This document shows, one piece after another, positions 3,806 through 16,494 of a stretch of 63,533 nt of DNA. Origin of the DNA: Candidatus Zixiibacteriota bacterium (GTDB lineage Bacteria > Zixibacteria > MSB-5A5 > GN15 > JAAZOE01); NCBI GenBank assembly GCA_036480375.1, contig JAZGGI010000027.1, forward strand, positions 1 to 63,533. The letters run 5' to 3'. The first letter of the stretch is position 1; every line of letters starts with the position of its first letter. The translations under genes were made by a program, and so were the position numbers. A model generated the notes under the pieces. It had not been told where the DNA came from and searched no databases. It saw only the letters and a program-made list of their open reading frames with translations.

Positions 3806-3893
3806 AGTTATCCACAAACGCATTTTTGAAAATTCCTCGTATATGAATGTGTCTGTGTAAGTTACAGCGAATTGGGTTCGTTTTGTCCTTTTT
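3806..3893. repeat. 88-bp dispersed repeat, copy A
   Basis: Begins AGTTATCCACA and ends GAATTGGGTTCG plus TTTTGTCCTTTTT. A related copy of the same length lies at 24174-24261, with a near-identical last 25 bp and a diverged middle. It is non-coding; conceptual translation on the other strand gives KTNPI-like peptides that are not real proteins. Confidence 0.7.
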
Positions 3894-4026
3894 AGTACTT
3901 TCGTAAAAGGTTCCTTTGCCATTGATCACAAACACTCAACCATAAACCATTCCATTCAATAATGCAGTTGTTTTCAGTAATTGCGATGGATTTGATGTGA
4001 ATTTGCGAATGGTCTATGCGATTTTT

Positions 4027-4051
4027 CCCACAGCAAGACTGTGGGCCACCC
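4027..4051. repeat. Hairpin repeat with TGGGCCACC flank, copy A
   Basis: Perfect stem CCCACAG / CTGTGGG with a 5-nt loop, overlapping the constant motif TGGGCCACC. The same motif (or its complement GGTGGCCCA) borders different hairpins at 24576-24620 and 52057-52126, so the flank is conserved while the stem sequence changes. There is no U-tract, so it is not an obvious terminator. Confidence 0.55.
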
Positions 4052-4064
4052 TGGCAATTGTTAA

Positions 4065-5621
4065 TTATTTGATTTTTGAAAACCATTCAAGGATGTGCCA
4101 AAATTCCTTATCCTGAACTTCAGTATTATTTACAGCTATTTTTGAAAGTCCTTTTAAAAACTCAAATAAGATTTCATCATGACTAACTCCATGAACGAAA
4201 CACTTCCCTTGAGCAATGTCAGTTGCATCAAACAAAAATTCAAATAATTTCTTATCTTTATCTCTTATTAATACACACCATAGGAACCGGGGCATGTTTT
4301 TAAGCAATAATTCTTTTTTTGCCTTATTATTGATATGTGTATCGTTTCGTATTTCAGATTTGAAATCATTGATGGTGGTCAAGTAGATATCCCATTCAAA
4401 ATGCTGTGGAAACGGTAATTTTAAGGTTTTTATAATACTTCCAATGAAAATATCGAATCCAAGAATTATGTTTCTTATATGGTCGTATCTAATCCTAATT
4501 TTTGGATATAATGGAATTAATAAAAAATGGGGGACCGCTCTAATACTGCCAAAACCCAACGATGTTGACAAGGAATTATAATTACTATTCTCGTAAGATA
4601 TTATTTTATTGTCAAGTTCAACTCGTGCGAACGGACCAACTTGATCATCGTGGACATATAGCTTATCTATTTGGGAAGATTTTAGAAGAATTTTAGTCGG
4701 TCCATATGGAACGCATTCTTTTGTTCCCAGACTAAATCCGGTTACGGCCATGGCATGATTAGCAATATATTTAGGGGGAGATGAATTTGATTGCTCAAAT
4801 AATGATACTCTCAGTAAAAGTGGAATACCCGCTTTCAAGTAGGCATATACTGCACCCTGCAAATTTGCATATTGTTGAGCGTCTATGTGATCAGCCTCCA
4901 AACCAAGCTGGCGCACAGCAAAAATTTCCTGCCTTCCGGTCAATCCTCTGCTTGGTAAAGAACCGGGCGCATTTTCATCTGGAAACTTGGTCGCTATTTG
5001 TGTTATTTCTACGGGTGATGGAATTGGGTGTTGAAATAACTTTCCAGTACCCTGAAACAACGACCATAAGGCACTTGTTGCACAGGCAGCAGCACCTTGA
5101 TCCTGCTCTTGAAAAGCAAGTGTTTTATTGACTGTTAAATTAATTCCGAATAAACTGACGGGATATTCCCTTAATATGGGAAAGTGCCTTCGTCCATTAT
5201 TTGGTCCATATGTTACTAAACATGTTCTTCCAATAAATGTCTTTGGTAGCTTTTTAACCACAATAAATCCAAGGTATGATTCATTGAAATTTAATGCTTT
5301 TTTTTCTTTGCTTCGATTTATCAAAATCGTGCCAAAAAATTGTGGGGAAAATTCTAACTTAAAAAAATGTAACCTGGTACATAATCTCTCATATTGGTCA
5401 AAACAACGGGAATAAAAACCAGCATAATCTTCCATGAAATCTCTGTCAATATAGTCATTTTCCACAACAATAGTTTTGGCATTAAGGTTGGAAAAATAAT
5501 GCCTAAAATATAGGGAATGAAGTTTTGTATTAACAGTTGAAGGTAATGCACCTGATTTTATAGATAGTAATTGTTTTAATTTGTCTATTGTGTAAGGATA
5601 AATCTCATAAGGTTTTTTCAT
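4065..5621 (-). CDS. Papain-like cysteine-peptidase-like protein of unknown family
   Basis: 518 residues, no signal peptide and no clear membrane segment, so probably cytoplasmic. A papain or C39-like active site can be read: QEQDQGAAACATSALWS (residues 171-187) gives a Gln/Asp and nucleophile Cys180, ANHAMAVTGFSLG places His289, and VHDDQVGPFAR supplies acidic residues at 325-326. Residues 1-165 form an unassigned N-terminal domain containing YLGFIVVKKLPKTFIGRTCL; residues 350-518 include MPRFLWCVL and LFEFLFDATDIAQGK. I do not recognise a named family, and proteolysis is inferred from motif order only. The gene starts 5 nt after the stop of a 58-aa ORF, suggesting one transcript. It is more AT-rich than its neighbours and sits inside a direct-repeat-bounded insertion, which suggests acquisition. 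Confidence 0.75.
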   Translation of the reverse strand: MKKPYEIYPYTIDKLKQLLSIKSGALPSTVNTKLHSLYFRHYFSNLNAKTIVVENDYIDRDFMEDYAGFYSRCFDQYERLCTRLHFFKLEFSPQFFGTILINRSKEKKALNFNESYLGFIVVKKLPKTFIGRTCLVTYGPNNGRRHFPILREYPVSLFGINLTVNKTLAFQEQDQGAAACATSALWSLFQGTGKLFQHPIPSPVEITQIATKFPDENAPGSLPSRGLTGRQEIFAVRQLGLEADHIDAQQYANLQGAVYAYLKAGIPLLLRVSLFEQSNSSPPKYIANHAMAVTGFSLGTKECVPYGPTKILLKSSQIDKLYVHDDQVGPFARVELDNKIISYENSNYNSLSTSLGFGSIRAVPHFLLIPLYPKIRIRYDHIRNIILGFDIFIGSIIKTLKLPFPQHFEWDIYLTTINDFKSEIRNDTHINNKAKKELLLKNMPRFLWCVLIRDKDKKLFEFLFDATDIAQGKCFVHGVSHDEILFEFLKGLSKIAVNNTEVQDKEFWHILEWFSKIK

Positions 5622-5626
5622 GTGAA

Positions 5627-5803
5627 TTATAATGTGGCTGGTTCATCTAACAGCTTGGGGTCAACTTGAGCTTCTTTTTTCAATTTTTCAATAGTCTCTA
5701 CAATTTTTTTATCTGTTTTCTTGAGAGACTTCTTCCATTCAGGAGATTTCATCAAGGCAATTACTTTCTTATTCACCATTTCGATGGTTTTTTCCTGTGT
5801 CAT
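5627..5803 (-). CDS. 58-aa charged protein upstream of the peptidase-like gene
   Basis: Starts ATG with a good Shine-Dalgarno sequence (AGGAG, about 6 nt upstream). The product begins MTQEKTIEMVNKKVIALM, continues through KSPEWKKSLKKTDKKIV, and ends DPKLLDEPATL. It is strongly charged, Lys-rich and predicted mostly helical, with no membrane segment. Its stop lies 5 nt before the start of the 518-aa gene, so the two are very likely co-transcribed. It could be a peptide substrate, an inhibitor or antitoxin-like partner of the peptidase-like protein; the sequence does not decide. I recognise no family. Confidence 0.7.
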   Translation of the reverse strand: MTQEKTIEMVNKKVIALMKSPEWKKSLKKTDKKIVETIEKLKKEAQVDPKLLDEPATL

Positions 5804-6375
5804 AATAGTCTCCTAAAAGAATTCAGCAATTTTTATTTAATCCGCCAATCTCGTATTTAACAACGAAAATCAATTAAAAATGTTCACTGTTTTATTATCG
5901 GAAATCAAAGAAGCTTTTTTAGTCATAAAAAAACTACTCATTTTTGTGTAAGTTAACGGCTATCTTTTGCCATAGGCAAAAGATAGCCGTTAAACTTTAA
6001 AAGTCAATAAAAATAATATCACATTTTCATAAGACTGTTAACACCCAAACTATATACCCAAAAAAATGTGCTCAATTCGAATATTGCTGAAAAGAAGGGG
6101 TATATAAATTATTGAGACTGTTTCGGTGAAGGTGTGGACACCTGCGCGGCACAGGCGAAGGCCTGTTTTCATGCGGCGCATCCGGCATAAGCCGGACTCT
6201 TCGCAATGACTTTTAATTACCTTTTCAACAGTCCTTTACGGGAAGGTATTTTTTATTATGATTTCTGAACAAAGCAAGCACGCAACTAAACCTGGCCGTT
6301 TTCGTAAAAAAGATTGTAAATAATTTCTTGACAGGTTATACTTAATTGTCCTGTTGGAAAGGGGAGGCATTAGTC
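5804..6375. other. Intergenic stretch, right end of insertion
   Basis: AT-rich spacer containing the presumed promoter of the two-gene unit reading leftwards, a 19-bp perfect hairpin (5953-5993), a fragment of the dispersed AGGCGAAGGCCTGTTTTC repeat (about 6153-6170) followed by palindromic GC-rich bases, and the right 113-bp direct repeat from 6279. No further gene seen. Confidence 0.65.
5953..5993. repeat. Perfect 19-bp inverted repeat with 3-nt loop
   Basis: The arm TTAACGGCTATCTTTTGCC is followed by ATA and its exact reverse complement. Pairing can continue outward with one bulged base. There is no U-tract on either strand immediately after the stem, so it is not a typical intrinsic terminator. 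It lies about 150 nt upstream of the 58-aa gene and could be an operator, a transcript-stabilising hairpin or an element end. Confidence 0.8.
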
Positions 6376-11058: not shown

Positions 11059-12111
11059 ATGCTTATGAAATATTTGTCAAAGATAATCATAGTCACTCTG
11101 GGACTTTTAGCGATTTCCGGGGTTGCTTCAGCCCAGATTTATGGAACGGATCAACAACAGCGGCTTCAGTATGCTCTGGAAAGGACTGATGAAATTATAA
11201 ATCGCGCCCGGGAAGTGGTTCAGGAAAGTGGCTCCGAACGGGCCCGTTTGATTTTGCAAGCCGCTATCAGACTTCAGGAAAACGCCCGTCAGATATCGGA
11301 ACGGGCATTTGACTTAACTGATGAGTCTATGGGAATGCAATCCGGCCGCCGTACGCTTGAAGCTCGAGAACGAGCCCAAAGGGCTATTGCAATTACCCGA
11401 CAAGCCGGTGAAAACGAGAATTTTGTAAGGCGTAAACTGGAAAAAACCGAAGAAAAAATGCGTCGCCTGGAGGAACAAATCGGCCCCAATGCCCCGGATC
11501 AGATATCTAAATTACTTGACTCTACCCGAGAAAAACAACGCCGAGCGACGGAATTGTTCCGCAATCGGCGACTGAAGCCCTCTCTCCAGATGACAATTCA
11601 GGTCGAAAAAGCTCTCGAGGATTTAGCCCGGCATATTAACAATAGAAACCGATTGGAAAATCGCTACCTGGCTCAGACGGATAATTATTTCCGACTGACT
11701 GACAGGATTAATTCCAGTGAATTATCGGAAAATGCGGAAGTGCAGGAACGTCTCCGTGCCGCGGAACAATTACGTGAACGAGCCGACGACTTTTTTGCCA
11801 ACGAAAATCACCGTCGCGCCGAAATAGTCATGGGTGATGCGGTTGATATGCTTAGAAAGTTTGCCGAACGATTGCGCGATCCGGCACGCATTAAACGGGC
11901 TCTTGAGAATATTCAAAATATGAGTGACCGCCTCAGGGAAAGAGTTCAACTATCTAACAACCGGCAAATCCGAGATTTATTTGAAAACGCCCTCGAGCAT
12001 TTAGACAACGCCAGAATAGGTTTTCAAAATAATCGATTTGAAGCGGCGGCATCACATATTCAGGCGGCCCGCCTGCTGTTGACAAGGGTTTCCAAACTTC
12101 TGGGAGACTAA
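11059..12111 (+). CDS. Exported coiled-coil protein
   Basis: 350 residues from ATG 11059 (ATG 11065 also possible) behind AAAAGGA. A signal peptide is clear: MKYLSKIIIVTLGLLAISG followed by VASAQ with cleavage after ASA. The mature part is almost entirely helical with heptad-like charged stretches (RRKLEKTEEKMRRLEEQIG; ERADDFFANENHRRAEIVM), rich in Arg, Glu and Asn, and contains no cysteine. It is likely a periplasmic or outer-membrane-associated helical protein. The next gene starts 3 nt after its stop, so they are co-transcribed. No family recognised. Confidence 0.8.
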   Translation: MLMKYLSKIIIVTLGLLAISGVASAQIYGTDQQQRLQYALERTDEIINRAREVVQESGSERARLILQAAIRLQENARQISERAFDLTDESMGMQSGRRTLEARERAQRAIAITRQAGENENFVRRKLEKTEEKMRRLEEQIGPNAPDQISKLLDSTREKQRRATELFRNRRLKPSLQMTIQVEKALEDLARHINNRNRLENRYLAQTDNYFRLTDRINSSELSENAEVQERLRAAEQLRERADDFFANENHRRAEIVMGDAVDMLRKFAERLRDPARIKRALENIQNMSDRLRERVQLSNNRQIRDLFENALEHLDNARIGFQNNRFEAAASHIQAARLLLTRVSKLLGD

Positions 12112-12114
12112 TCT

Positions 12115-13461
12115 TTGACAAAATATCCGGGCGGGATATTTATTATATGGCTAATTCTGATTAGCCGCATTTGGGGAAACGATTTACGGGATCCCTCCGG
12201 ATTATCGTTTTCCAGCGGGCTCGAATATCAGCTTATTTCCCAGGAATATTACAGTTCCATCATCGACACCACCCACATCGACTTATTGGAAAACTGGACA
12301 TTGACTCAGGAAAAATTCGATGAGGTCATTTTTAAAACCAACCTGCGGTACCGCCGCAAATCCCCCTCCAATAGATTCAATTTGATCACAGATATTGAGC
12401 TATCTCGAAAACGGTGGATTTCAAGGGCCGAATCATTCTATCAAATGGGAAATATGAACAAGGGCTTGCGTCTTTACGCCAAATTTGAAAATAAATCCTC
12501 TTTTGAAGACGATTCATATTACGATCGGGGATATCGATTTATTCAGACAAACCTGAGGGGTATATGCCCCATAACGTCTCATATTTCAATCGGCATCAGG
12601 CCGAAATTCGAATATGTTTCTTTTGAGAAATTGAATTCCGGAACGGAATTTTTGGTCGACCAATCCGGAATCGTAAACGCTTTCCAGAATAAAGATTACA
12701 GCATCAGCGGAGCTGAGTTACTTGGCGAAATTAAGTTAAGTGAATTCTCCCGAGTAATTGACTGGTCGGTTACTTTCAATCATCGTGATGTTCCCGATTC
12801 CAGTCTCGCGGCTTATAATCAATATTCATTCCGAATTGGCTTCAGCAATTTCGGGTATCGCGGCTCTTTTATCCTCGAATCCAATCTTGAACTCAAGGAT
12901 TATGCACAATTTAATAATAGAGAGGATTTTACCGCTTTTGAATTATCCGCACTTGCCAATCGGAATTTAGGCGAAAAATATGAAATCGGATTAATTCTCC
13001 AATTTAGCAATTACAGTTATAAATCCCCCGATATCGTCTATCGAAATCATTACCGGATTCGACCCGAAGTCAGACTTATTCGTAAAATCGGCAATTGGAG
13101 TATCGGCCCTGAATTAGTCTTTGAGCGTTATGTCGAAGGCTTAACCGAAGAGTACAACTCCATTCCTGGTCTTGATAACGAGGATTATTCTCATTGGGAA
13201 GCCGGCATTCTGGCAAATTTTATGAACCTGAATAGCGTCTTTCTCAATTCCGGGATTTCATTGGGAAGGCGATACTACCCGGAAGATCTTCTTGTTCTAA
13301 GCTCTTACTCCCTGATTTCCGGTTCTATGATAGCAGATATATCCATTACCAAAAATATATCGATTAATTTAAATGCCGATATCAATTTTGAGCGCCATAA
13401 AATTAAAGAGGACAACATGACTCTTTATTTGCTCTCCGCCTCAGTAAAATCCAGGTTTTAA
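12115..13461 (+). CDS. Probable outer-membrane beta-barrel protein
   Basis: 448 residues. The chosen start is TTG 12115, 8 nt after GGGAG; no ATG exists nearby. An N-terminal hydrophobic stretch (about 8-22, FIIWLILISRIWGN) can serve as a signal. The rest alternates polar and hydrophobic residues in strand-sized blocks rich in aromatic residues (YRIRPEVRLIRKIGNWSIG; FRIGFSNFGYRGSFILESN). The protein ends LLSASVKSRF with a C-terminal Phe, the usual last residue of outer-membrane barrels. It forms an operon with the coiled-coil protein upstream. Substrate or function unknown. Confidence 0.7.
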   Translation: MTKYPGGIFIIWLILISRIWGNDLRDPSGLSFSSGLEYQLISQEYYSSIIDTTHIDLLENWTLTQEKFDEVIFKTNLRYRRKSPSNRFNLITDIELSRKRWISRAESFYQMGNMNKGLRLYAKFENKSSFEDDSYYDRGYRFIQTNLRGICPITSHISIGIRPKFEYVSFEKLNSGTEFLVDQSGIVNAFQNKDYSISGAELLGEIKLSEFSRVIDWSVTFNHRDVPDSSLAAYNQYSFRIGFSNFGYRGSFILESNLELKDYAQFNNREDFTAFELSALANRNLGEKYEIGLILQFSNYSYKSPDIVYRNHYRIRPEVRLIRKIGNWSIGPELVFERYVEGLTEEYNSIPGLDNEDYSHWEAGILANFMNLNSVFLNSGISLGRRYYPEDLLVLSSYSLISGSMIADISITKNISINLNADINFERHKIKEDNMTLYLLSASVKSRF

Positions 13462-13860
13462 GCGATTCTGCACCACCTTAGTGCCAAAAAGCGCTTGACA
13501 AATCTCGAAAATGTATTACTTTTTTGTTGTCTAGGGATTAGTTGTGTTTTGTCGCACCTTTCCTATGCTTCAAGCGCACCTTGAGTAGCTTTATCGTACT
13601 TACTTAAAGTACTCCAAGTTACATATACGCTCTTACAAAAACTTTTTGCTGAGATTTAAACTCAGTTTACTCTTGAGGTATGTTCATTAGACGTTTACCT
13701 ATGCATCATTTAGACTCGACATCTTCGTTTGACGGGTATTCGTTGTTGATTTTAATCCCATTATGTAACAGAGGTTTAAACTCTTGAAAAGGTTCCTTAA
13801 TTCCTTATGGTGTCTTATGTTTTGCGACGCCGTAATGGACAAATTTAAAGGAGCAGTGTA
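13462..13860 (+). promoter_or_regulatory. Long leader of the large surface protein gene
   Basis: 399 bp without a gene. A TTGACA lies at 13495-13500, followed by an AT-rich region with TATTAC at 13514, although the spacing is shorter than usual. The rest would be a leader of more than 300 nt. It contains two similar palindromic blocks (GAGATTTAAACTC near 13650 and GAGGTTTAAACTC near 13771) and ends in AAAGGAG before the start codon. It may be a structured 5' untranslated region. Confidence 0.4.
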
Positions 13861-16494
13861 ATGAAGCAAAACAAGCTACTTATTTTATCATTGCTGGCCT
13901 CGTTTCTGCTTCTGACTTTGGCTTCCTATGCAAATGCTCAGAATACGGTAACATTCGGTATCTTAGATGTATGCCCGCAGCCAGCAGGCTCTAAAGTTTA
14001 TGTCCCTGTTTCAGTGGACAATGACATTGACCTGTTTGCTATAGATATTGTCGGACAGATTGTCTCCACCTCAGGCGGTGTTGACCTTGTCGTGACGGGT
14101 GTAGTTTTTGATAACCGAATGGGACTTCCGGAAGTCCTTGATCAGCGTTATCCAATCGGCGATCTTGGTGGCGGATTATTCCGTCTCGGCGCCGTAAAAG
14201 TTGAAGGTGCAGATTTGGTAATCGGTTCCGGCCAGGTTGCTACATTGGAACTTGAATTTGTTTCCGAATGTCTACTTGGCTCGGCCTCTATCGACCCAGG
14301 CGCCTACAACTGTAATGGTGACGATAAAGTCACCATGTTTTTGGATGGCGAAGGTACCGCGATCTACCCAGATCCCGTTACCAGTGGTGCAGTCAATGTT
14401 GTCAATACCGATCCGCAATTCACCAATTGCCCGGAATCCGATTTTGATATTTTCTGGAAATCCGGTAGTTGGGGCACAAACCAGGTTACAATCGCGTTTA
14501 CCGTCGATGATCCTGACCTGGATTGCGATTGCGACGCTCTCGCCTTTACTCTAATGGAAGGCCCGGGTTCGGTCAACTCCGCCAATGGAGTTTACTCGTT
14601 CACGGCCACATCTGTAGACATCGGTTGTCACCATGTCAAGATTAAGGTGAATGACAGCTATGGCGGCGAAGATTTCTGTGAGTTTGATATTACCGTTAAC
14701 AATAATCCTCCAGAAATTACTGAATGTCCAGACGAGACCATCAATATTCTTTGGGGTCAGACCGCAATGGCGACAGTCGCGGCCACTGATCCCGATATGG
14801 GACCTTCGGCGTTGGTTTATACACTTGAAAGTTATGACGGTCCAGTTTCCTCAGAACCGGTAGTCAATCCGACCACCGGCGCTGTGACCTGGGCTACTTC
14901 TGAAACCAACGATTTTATTGGCGATTTTGAAATCTGTGTCAAGGTTTCGGATCTTGCTCCGAGCACTCAAGATTGCCCAATACCGAACTCAGCGGTATGT
15001 TGTTTCAATGTACATGTTGAGCCGAAGTTCCGCGTCACTATCGAGAAGAGCCACGATGTTTATCTTGGCCATTACACCGATCTCACCGTTACTCTTGATG
15101 ATTCTTACGAATCAATGGAGATGGGTGGTTTTGATTTCTTGATTGCGTATGATCAATCCGTTCTCAGTCTGGTTGACGCCCAAGCCGGCGCTCTTCTGGA
15201 AACCTGTGGATGGGAATACTTCACCTATCGTCACGGTTATGACGGCAACTGTGGTAACGGCTGTCCTTCCGGCGCTGTCCGGATCGTAGCAATGGCCGAA
15301 ACCAATAACGGTCCGTTTCACCCGACGTGCTTCAGCTCGGCCTCAGGCAATGAGCTGGCGGTGTTGAAATTCTACGTCATCAATGATCATAACTACGATT
15401 GTCAATATGTCCCGGTCACCTTCTTCTGGATGGATTGTGCCGACAACGCCATTTCCTCCAAATTTGGTGACACGCTCTTCCTCGAAGACGTAGTTTATAA
15501 TCTTGAAGGCGACATCATTTCCGCTCATGGCGGTTTTCCGAACGCGCTCGGAACCGATGACGCCTGCTTGACTCAGGACGAAGAACAGACGAAAGAATAT
15601 CCTCTTCGTGCCATCGATTTCAAAAACGGCGGCGTTGACATTATCTGCGATTCTCTTATCGATGATCGCGGTGACGTTAACATGAATGGTATCGCCTACG
15701 AAATCGCTGACGCGGTCATGTTTACCAATTACTTCATCAGCGGCTTGTCCGCTTTTAGTACTCATGTCGAGGGTTCGATCGCTGCGTCCGACGCTAATGC
15801 TGACGGCGCTACCCTGACCGTCGCTGACCTGGTTTACCTCGTCCGCGTTATCCAGGGTGATGCGCTTCCGTATCAGAAGCCGGATCCGAATGCGTCCTTC
15901 ACCGTGAAGACGCAGATGGTCGGCGGAAACATGAATGTCGGTATCGAGACTACCAACGATGCCGGTGCGGCCTTGTTTGTCTTTAACGTCACGGGTGAAA
16001 TCGGGCAACCGATTCTGGCCGATGGTGTCAACATGGATATCGCTTACGATGTTGACAATGGCGAACTCCGCATCCTGGTTTACAACATCGACGATCCCGA
16101 AGCTATCAGCTCCGGCGAATTGTTGACCATTCCAGCCAACGGCACAATCGACCTCAGAGAAGTCGAAGCCGCTGACTTTAATGGAAGTACCATGGCTTCA
16201 TCCATTCATGTCCTCCCGTCCTCTTTCGCACTGGCTCAGAACTATCCTAACCCATTTAACCCTACTACAACAATCATGCTGGCTCTACCTGTGGCCTCTG
16301 AATTTACTTTAGAGATCTACAACATTGCCGGCCAGAGTGTGCGTACCTACACCGGCTCAAGTGAAGCTGGAGTAGTTGAAATAGTGTGGGATGGTAAGGA
16401 TACTTCCGGCAGCAGCGTTGCTTCGGGTATTTATCTCTATAAGGTGAAAGCCGCTGATTACTCAGCCACCAGGAGCATGATACTTCTGAAGTAA
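13861..16494 (+). CDS. Abundant-type surface protein: cohesin-like domains, dockerin-like loops and T9SS C-terminal domain
   Basis: 877 residues. The signal peptide MKQNKLLILSLLASFLLLTL ends at ANAQ. Residues about 27-170 and 395-560 look cohesin-like or related beta-sandwich (YVPVSVDNDIDLFAIDIVG; DLTVTLDDSYESMEMGGFDF followed by VLSLVDA). Between them are two Ig/cadherin-like units (FTVDDPDLDCDC; VAATDPDMGPSALVYTL). Residues about 625-690 carry dockerin-like loops (RGDVNMNG, ASDANADGATLTVADLVYLV). The last 85 residues start NYPNPFNPTTTIMLALP and end SGIYLYKVKAADYSATRSM, a type IX secretion sorting domain with the classic NPFNP motif. Codon use looks more biased to C-ending codons than in its neighbours, which fits high expression. 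A strong terminator follows. Confidence 0.88.
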   Translation: MKQNKLLILSLLASFLLLTLASYANAQNTVTFGILDVCPQPAGSKVYVPVSVDNDIDLFAIDIVGQIVSTSGGVDLVVTGVVFDNRMGLPEVLDQRYPIGDLGGGLFRLGAVKVEGADLVIGSGQVATLELEFVSECLLGSASIDPGAYNCNGDDKVTMFLDGEGTAIYPDPVTSGAVNVVNTDPQFTNCPESDFDIFWKSGSWGTNQVTIAFTVDDPDLDCDCDALAFTLMEGPGSVNSANGVYSFTATSVDIGCHHVKIKVNDSYGGEDFCEFDITVNNNPPEITECPDETINILWGQTAMATVAATDPDMGPSALVYTLESYDGPVSSEPVVNPTTGAVTWATSETNDFIGDFEICVKVSDLAPSTQDCPIPNSAVCCFNVHVEPKFRVTIEKSHDVYLGHYTDLTVTLDDSYESMEMGGFDFLIAYDQSVLSLVDAQAGALLETCGWEYFTYRHGYDGNCGNGCPSGAVRIVAMAETNNGPFHPTCFSSASGNELAVLKFYVINDHNYDCQYVPVTFFWMDCADNAISSKFGDTLFLEDVVYNLEGDIISAHGGFPNALGTDDACLTQDEEQTKEYPLRAIDFKNGGVDIICDSLIDDRGDVNMNGIAYEIADAVMFTNYFISGLSAFSTHVEGSIAASDANADGATLTVADLVYLVRVIQGDALPYQKPDPNASFTVKTQMVGGNMNVGIETTNDAGAALFVFNVTGEIGQPILADGVNMDIAYDVDNGELRILVYNIDDPEAISSGELLTIPANGTIDLREVEAADFNGSTMASSIHVLPSSFALAQNYPNPFNPTTTIMLALPVASEFTLEIYNIAGQSVRTYTGSSEAGVVEIVWDGKDTSGSSVASGIYLYKVKAADYSATRSMILLK

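Follow-up and report, generated by a model that had tools for sequence, protein, structure and literature searches.

What does a bacterium make from two adjacent genes of which the first encodes a small charged protein and the second a papain-like protein, and what might the small protein do for the large one? The question is raised by a contig of Candidatus Zixiibacteriota bacterium (JAZGGI010000027.1), of which the whole stretch of 63,533 nucleotides was analysed and is referred to here as the window. The preliminary description of this locus, made from the sequence alone, had reported a small open reading frame with an AGGAG site, ending 5 nt before a 518-aa gene. All of these elements held: the 58-aa gene comes first and the 518-aa gene second on the minus strand, with 5 nt between them (Table 1). 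A second, paralogous pair was found on another contig of the same genome (G000:C31), with large proteins that are 76% identical. The DNA homology of the two copies is limited by the stop codon of the large gene on one side and by a point ~225 nt upstream of the small gene on the other, and beyond these limits the DNA differs. Since the homology ends at the cassette borders, the unit consists of the two genes plus the leader; the pair is an autonomous two-gene unit. Comparison of the paralogues gave dN 0.067 and dS 0.546 for the small gene (dN/dS 0.12, purifying selection) and dN 0.152 and dS 1.388 for the large gene, and on the basis of these ratios both genes are genuinely coding. The further claim that the pair lies in a mobile-looking island held only in part, in that the window has neither an integrase nor a transposase next to the pair. 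Its mobile character rests instead on a local drop in GC content (34% in each of the two genes vs 44.5% for the window), on the two-copy cassette whose homology stops at its borders, and on plasmid and island copies found elsewhere.

Table 1. Positions of the gene pair and its features in the window.
Feature	Position	Strand	Remark
Papain-fold protein, 518 aa (predicted fold)	4065..5621	-	N-terminal alpha/beta domain, papain-like core, C-terminal domain
Papain-like core, about residues 168-345	4587..5120	-	Borders approximate, from secondary structure
His324-Asp325-Asp326, presumed third catalytic residue	4644..4652	-	Invariant 79/79
His289, presumed general base	4755..4757	-	Invariant 79/79
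Gln173-Asp174 ... Cys180, presumed oxyanion residue and nucleophile	5082..5105	-	Invariant 79/79
Small partner gene, 58 aa	5627..5803	-	Charged helical protein ending ...QVDPKLLDEPATL
Conserved C-terminal tail, residues 46-58	5630..5668	-	Fixed register to free carboxyl end across loci
AGGAG ribosome-binding site of small gene	5810..5814	-	
Block common to both cassettes	~4065..6027	-	79% nucleotide identity; contains only the two genes and the ~225-nt leader
Inverted repeat in leader	5953..5993	.	19-nt perfect arms, 3-nt loop
Promoter-like TTAACA-17-TATTAT, TG before -10	6013..6041	-	Consensus match only

Relatives of the large protein were sought with single sequences and with profiles. A single-sequence search returned relatives in nine more genomes of the same phylum and on four plasmids (Hymenobacter, Shewanella, Pseudomonas aeruginosa and Mesorhizobium). 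The first scan of genome contigs with a single sequence yielded no relatives; a profile scan then succeeded and, with one genome per species, gave 213 relatives of the large protein, with 80 loci read. Five further relatives came from viral contigs, no phage record matched the large protein, and DNA searches located the pair in 20 E. coli genomes. Altogether relatives occur in about 17 phyla including some archaea, as well as on plasmids and in E. coli islands, and nearly all of the ~95 loci examined contain both genes. The prevalence across other phyla does not derive from random sampling. On a tree of 79 large proteins, the labels of 17 phyla require 26 changes, above the minimum possible number of 16 and far below the number needed for shuffled labels. 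From this we infer that the family is old and partly vertically inherited, with transfers likely. The pair falls outside the families of Pfam, NCBIfam and PADLOC, one member standing barely above the general C39_2 cut-off, yet its relatives reach across about 17 phyla, archaea and E. coli among them. Neither protein matched the PADLOC 2.0 models at E <= 1, PHROGs offered nothing convincing, and the literature searched contained no paper on the pair, nor did a search by accession; the main text of the DefensePredictor paper describes no papain-like system. In one genome (G025; loci L006 and L010) the two parts of the enzyme gene sit at separate contig ends and the reading changes near residue 251, possibly because of an insertion or an assembly break.

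The identity of the large protein was addressed by structure prediction. An AlphaFold2 model built with 79 sequences reached a pLDDT of 94.6 and a pTM of 0.93. In this model a helix spanning residues 180-196 starts at Cys180, which caps the central helix, His289 lies in strand 284-298, and Asp325 ends strand 318-325. Foldseek against the PDB gave staphopain as the top match (1pxv_A, E 1.6e-5, target TM 0.61), followed by Treponema C0362, UfSP, PCAT1 and phytochelatin synthase, with ZUFSP also matched. Gln173, Asp174, Cys180, His289 and His324-Asp325-Asp326 were invariant in all 79 sequences. Cys180 and the HDD motif formed part of the search patterns, so their invariance is partly due to selection; Gln173, Asp174 and His289 lay outside the patterns. 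The arrangement satisfies the criteria for clan CA, namely a Cys at the start of the central helix, a downstream His and Asp on strands, an upstream Gln, and structural similarity to solved members. The existence of the unit and, as a model prediction, the papain fold of the large protein are well supported, and proteolytic activity is inferred. At the sequence level the nearest Pfam model is Peptidase_C39_2 (PF13529), which 20 of the 79 members match with a best E of 1.8e-4. The protein of the window scores 14.7 bits, below the gathering threshold of 24, and among the proteins with scores shown only the plasmid protein L013 exceeds the cut-off (24.7 vs 24). A profile search of PDB sequences found nothing at E <= 1, and no sequence relation to solved C47 members was detected. 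These results bear out the resemblance to papain/C39-type peptidases that had been proposed from the motif order: the residues are at the stated places in the chain (Q173/D174/C180, H289, H324-D325-D326), and the best PDB matches to the confident papain fold include staphopain, C39 peptidases and UfSP. A Cys180-His289 pair in contact had been named as the structural check, and in the model Cys180 begins the central helix and His289 and Asp325 lie on later strands; no coordinates were available for a Cys-His distance.

Two extra domains flank the papain-like core. The N-terminal domain carries the invariant polar residues E54, Y57, D65, Y70, R83 and H85, which suggest a second functional site. 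A mainly gammaproteobacterial subgroup of ~700 aa (L013, L093, L099, L100, L102 and L103) has an additional C-terminal domain (~180 aa; L013 7830-10007) with the motif GHPxLTGxKPARIxGE...SGRYS and no Pfam match; the small partners of this subgroup end in Y[GST]L or CSL.

We then considered the small protein. Where upstream DNA exists, an open reading frame of 48-92 aa precedes the enzyme in nearly every locus, mostly within 75 nt and in some loci at gaps of up to 194 nt. Among the 87 small reading frames picked, 78 scored as typical and most of the others were recognisable with an altered end. The exceptions are L022, which has no small reading frame, and L058, L095 and L101, in which it is truncated or degenerate. 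The proposed check that homologues carry a small upstream gene was thus passed across phyla. What the preliminary description had missed is the conserved C-terminal tail. The body of the small protein is variable and charged, and the last residues are its most conserved part, with the consensus ...[VIL]DPxxLxxP[FIV]T[LIV]-COOH. Counted from the carboxyl end, position -1 is L/I/V, -2 is T/S/G/N, -3 is hydrophobic, -4 is often P, -7 is L and -12 is V/I/L. The features at -1, -2 and -7 occur together in 52 of 83 loci as compared with 2 of 284 control positions. Only the longest upstream reading frame was used for this count, since an earlier pick had relied on the motif itself. No natural fusion of the small and large proteins was found; in 79 sequences the large protein is extended at its N-terminus by 24 aa at most. 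Absence of fusions is what would be expected if the free end of the tail matters.

The two genes lie in one frame in 28 of ~85 loci, which equals the chance expectation of one third, and stop-codon read-through was accordingly rejected as a real feature. The read-through chain of one in-frame pair (L037, with the stop read as a residue) served only to model both proteins together. This 587-aa model (23 sequences, pTM 0.87) contained a confident helix at residues 19-43, a tail with a pLDDT of about 70 and a floppy linker at about 40. New beta-bridges appeared that involve tail residues -4/-3, the residue three before the catalytic Cys and the invariant PxxGL loop, none of which were present in the model of the enzyme alone. 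It is possible, as a model prediction, that the tail lies along the substrate cleft near the catalytic Cys; in the absence of coordinates or PAE the evidence is suggestive only. The placement is read from DSSP changes in one tethered model, the two models compared come from different homologues, and the tether may introduce bias. Mutual information between tail and enzyme columns, calculated over 66 sequences, gave no clear signal.

The E. coli copies provided a separate comparison. An island lineage present in 19 E. coli genomes has Tyr in place of the catalytic Cys as well as the catalytic His, and its small protein ends in SYEA. The Tyr residues were read in two of the 19 genomes, and the other 17 have DNA that is at least 99% identical. 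In a copy from another strain with intact catalytic residues, the small protein ends in SYSL. The E. coli copies link the tail to the catalytic state, but through a single event. In the E. coli island copy L102/L104 the enzyme occupies 12004-14052 with its 682-aa frame intact, and the small gene 11763-11927.

The neighbourhoods of the pair were compared with a defence role in mind, since clustering of homologues in defence islands had been proposed as a check. Copies in E. coli lie beside ABC-three-component (ABC-3C) genes, between tRNA-Pro and integrases, and another E. coli copy adjoins FRG-domain, GTPase, CbtA and restriction genes. Annotated neighbourhoods also hold multiubiquitin-ThiF modules, TrlF, caspase and helicase. 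Type I restriction-modification genes occur near L028, L049 and L082, a Hma/DISARM-like helicase near L027, HKD-Snf2 near L054, a ubiquitin-like E1 near L092, L013 and L014, and a caspase near L011 and L055. Defence genes adjoin many loci and not all, a frequency for which no background rate was measured. No constant neighbour or third gene was present in the loci compared, and the PADLOC models left 10 of the 20 flanking proteins chosen by hand unmatched. That the pair acts in defence is the leading idea, inferred and not a result.

Our best explanation, which we consider slightly more likely to be wrong than right, is that of a papain-fold protease gated by a product-like tail and acting in defence. 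In this view the pair would spread horizontally as an autonomous two-gene unit, and the large protein would be a cytosolic papain-fold cysteine protease with Cys180-His289-Asp325 as its catalytic residues and Gln173 in the oxyanion position. The small protein would be made first from a shared transcript and would bind the enzyme through its helix, with the conserved tail occupying the substrate cleft in an extended, product-like manner. We propose that the enzyme would be held silent because the small protein ends in the cleft, leaving nothing to cut. The trigger would be loss or displacement of the small protein, which could be caused by phage takeover, by stress proteolysis or by a phage factor, among others. 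The freed protease would then harm the cell or the invader, so that the system would resemble a toxin-antitoxin or guard system with a protease as its effector. Of this picture, the analysis shows an autonomous and widespread pair of genes, the fold, the invariant catalytic residues and a tail in constant register to the free end, and a model suggests that the tail lies near the active site. Inhibition, trigger, target and defence role are inferred, there being no activity, toxicity or phage data. The earlier suggestion of a peptidase with a small partner or substrate (toxin-antitoxin-like, defence or peptide processing) is accordingly supported as a possibility, its function remaining an inference. 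A bolder reading, to which we would not quite give an even chance, is that the pair represents an undescribed and widespread system of defence or conflict: the free C-terminus of the small protein would sit in the active site like a reaction product, and proteolysis would start once this tiny labile protein is lost. If true, protease-based bacterial immunity would gain papain-fold proteases with a product-like gate.

Known systems resemble the pair in part. Staphopain B and staphostatin B (MEROPS C47 / I57) combine a papain-related fold with a dedicated partner protein that is inserted into the active site much like a substrate, a mode of binding that for the new pair is a proposal. Staphopain is a small secreted protein with a prodomain, whereas two extra domains accompany the core of the new enzyme; staphostatin is a beta-barrel of which an internal segment crosses the site, whereas the new partner is a short helix whose free C-terminus is conserved. 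The working principle we propose is found in NleF bound to caspase-9, where a protein inhibits a cysteine protease by placing its C-terminus in the non-primed part of the cleft, a tail inhibitor 'one residue short of being cleaved' (PMC7863939). That system involves a caspase fold and a type III effector, and no sequence relation is claimed. Against the gate model, according to the review just cited, true papain-like proteases have no known inhibitors that are both stable and substrate-like, although C47 staphopain is an exception. C39 leader peptidases (PCAT1, ComA) and Peptidase_C39_2 share the papain-like core, the Cys-His-Asp order, the weak Pfam match and the structural matches, but the new pair has neither an ABC transporter nor a double-glycine substrate. 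With type II toxin-antitoxin systems the pair shares two genes, a small charged first gene, mobility and a place beside defence genes, and the criterion of a mobile two-gene operon with the small partner first is met. Here the toxin would be a large three-domain protease, no known family matches, and toxicity and neutralisation are inferred.

Two rival explanations, each less likely than the gate model, remain possible. The small protein may be a modifier or substrate, its C-terminus trimmed by the enzyme or the whole protein transferred to a target, as by ubiquitin-like-protein proteases or transpeptidases. Conservation of the extreme C-terminus, the structural matches to UfSP, ZUFSP and the acyl-transferring phytochelatin synthase, and the ThiF/multiubiquitin neighbours in several loci speak for this. 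Against it, the coding sequence stops at the conserved residue and leaves no extension that could be removed; a free carboxylate would have to be activated, and a constant E1-like partner is absent; and the small protein is a charged helix without a beta-grasp. Alternatively, the small protein may be an obligate subunit, chaperone or activator rather than an inhibitor, its tail docking as a structural anchor. Obligate pairing, operon order and the helix confidently predicted in the read-through model are consistent with this, but a tail that keeps its register to the free end and is predicted near the cleft better fits a cleft binder, and the two E. coli families link the tail with the catalytic state, in one event. 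Maturation of a peptide, with the small gene as precursor of a secreted product processed in the C39 manner, is very unlikely: C39_2 is the nearest Pfam model, but no constant transporter lies alongside, no double-glycine site is present, and the small protein is charged, lacks a Cys-rich or hydrophobic core and is conserved at its C-terminal end. A mere leader coupling translation of the large gene, suggested by the upstream position and short distance, is all but excluded and largely refuted by the dN/dS of the small gene and a tail conserved at the protein level across phyla, the wider gaps in some loci also counting against it.

Several features of the non-coding DNA around the cassette were also recorded. 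Exact copies of the leader inverted repeat occur in this genome only at the two cassettes, and a similar inverted repeat lies upstream of the small gene in the nearest relative, L017; the leader palindromes of this nearest clade, in the window and in L017, have TATCTTTTGC...GCAAAAGATA in common. As a feature of the family the repeat was rejected, since, the nearest clade apart, a repeat turned up in just one further locus out of 87, with an unrelated sequence. At 4027-4045 of the window, ~20 nt past the stop codon of the enzyme gene, lies a perfect hairpin, CCCACAG-TCTTG-CTGTGGG, a possible terminator. Just downstream of the cassette, at 3806-3900, is an interspersed repeat of ~95 bp with at least 40 copies in this genome, and stretches related to it occur near L002 and L017.
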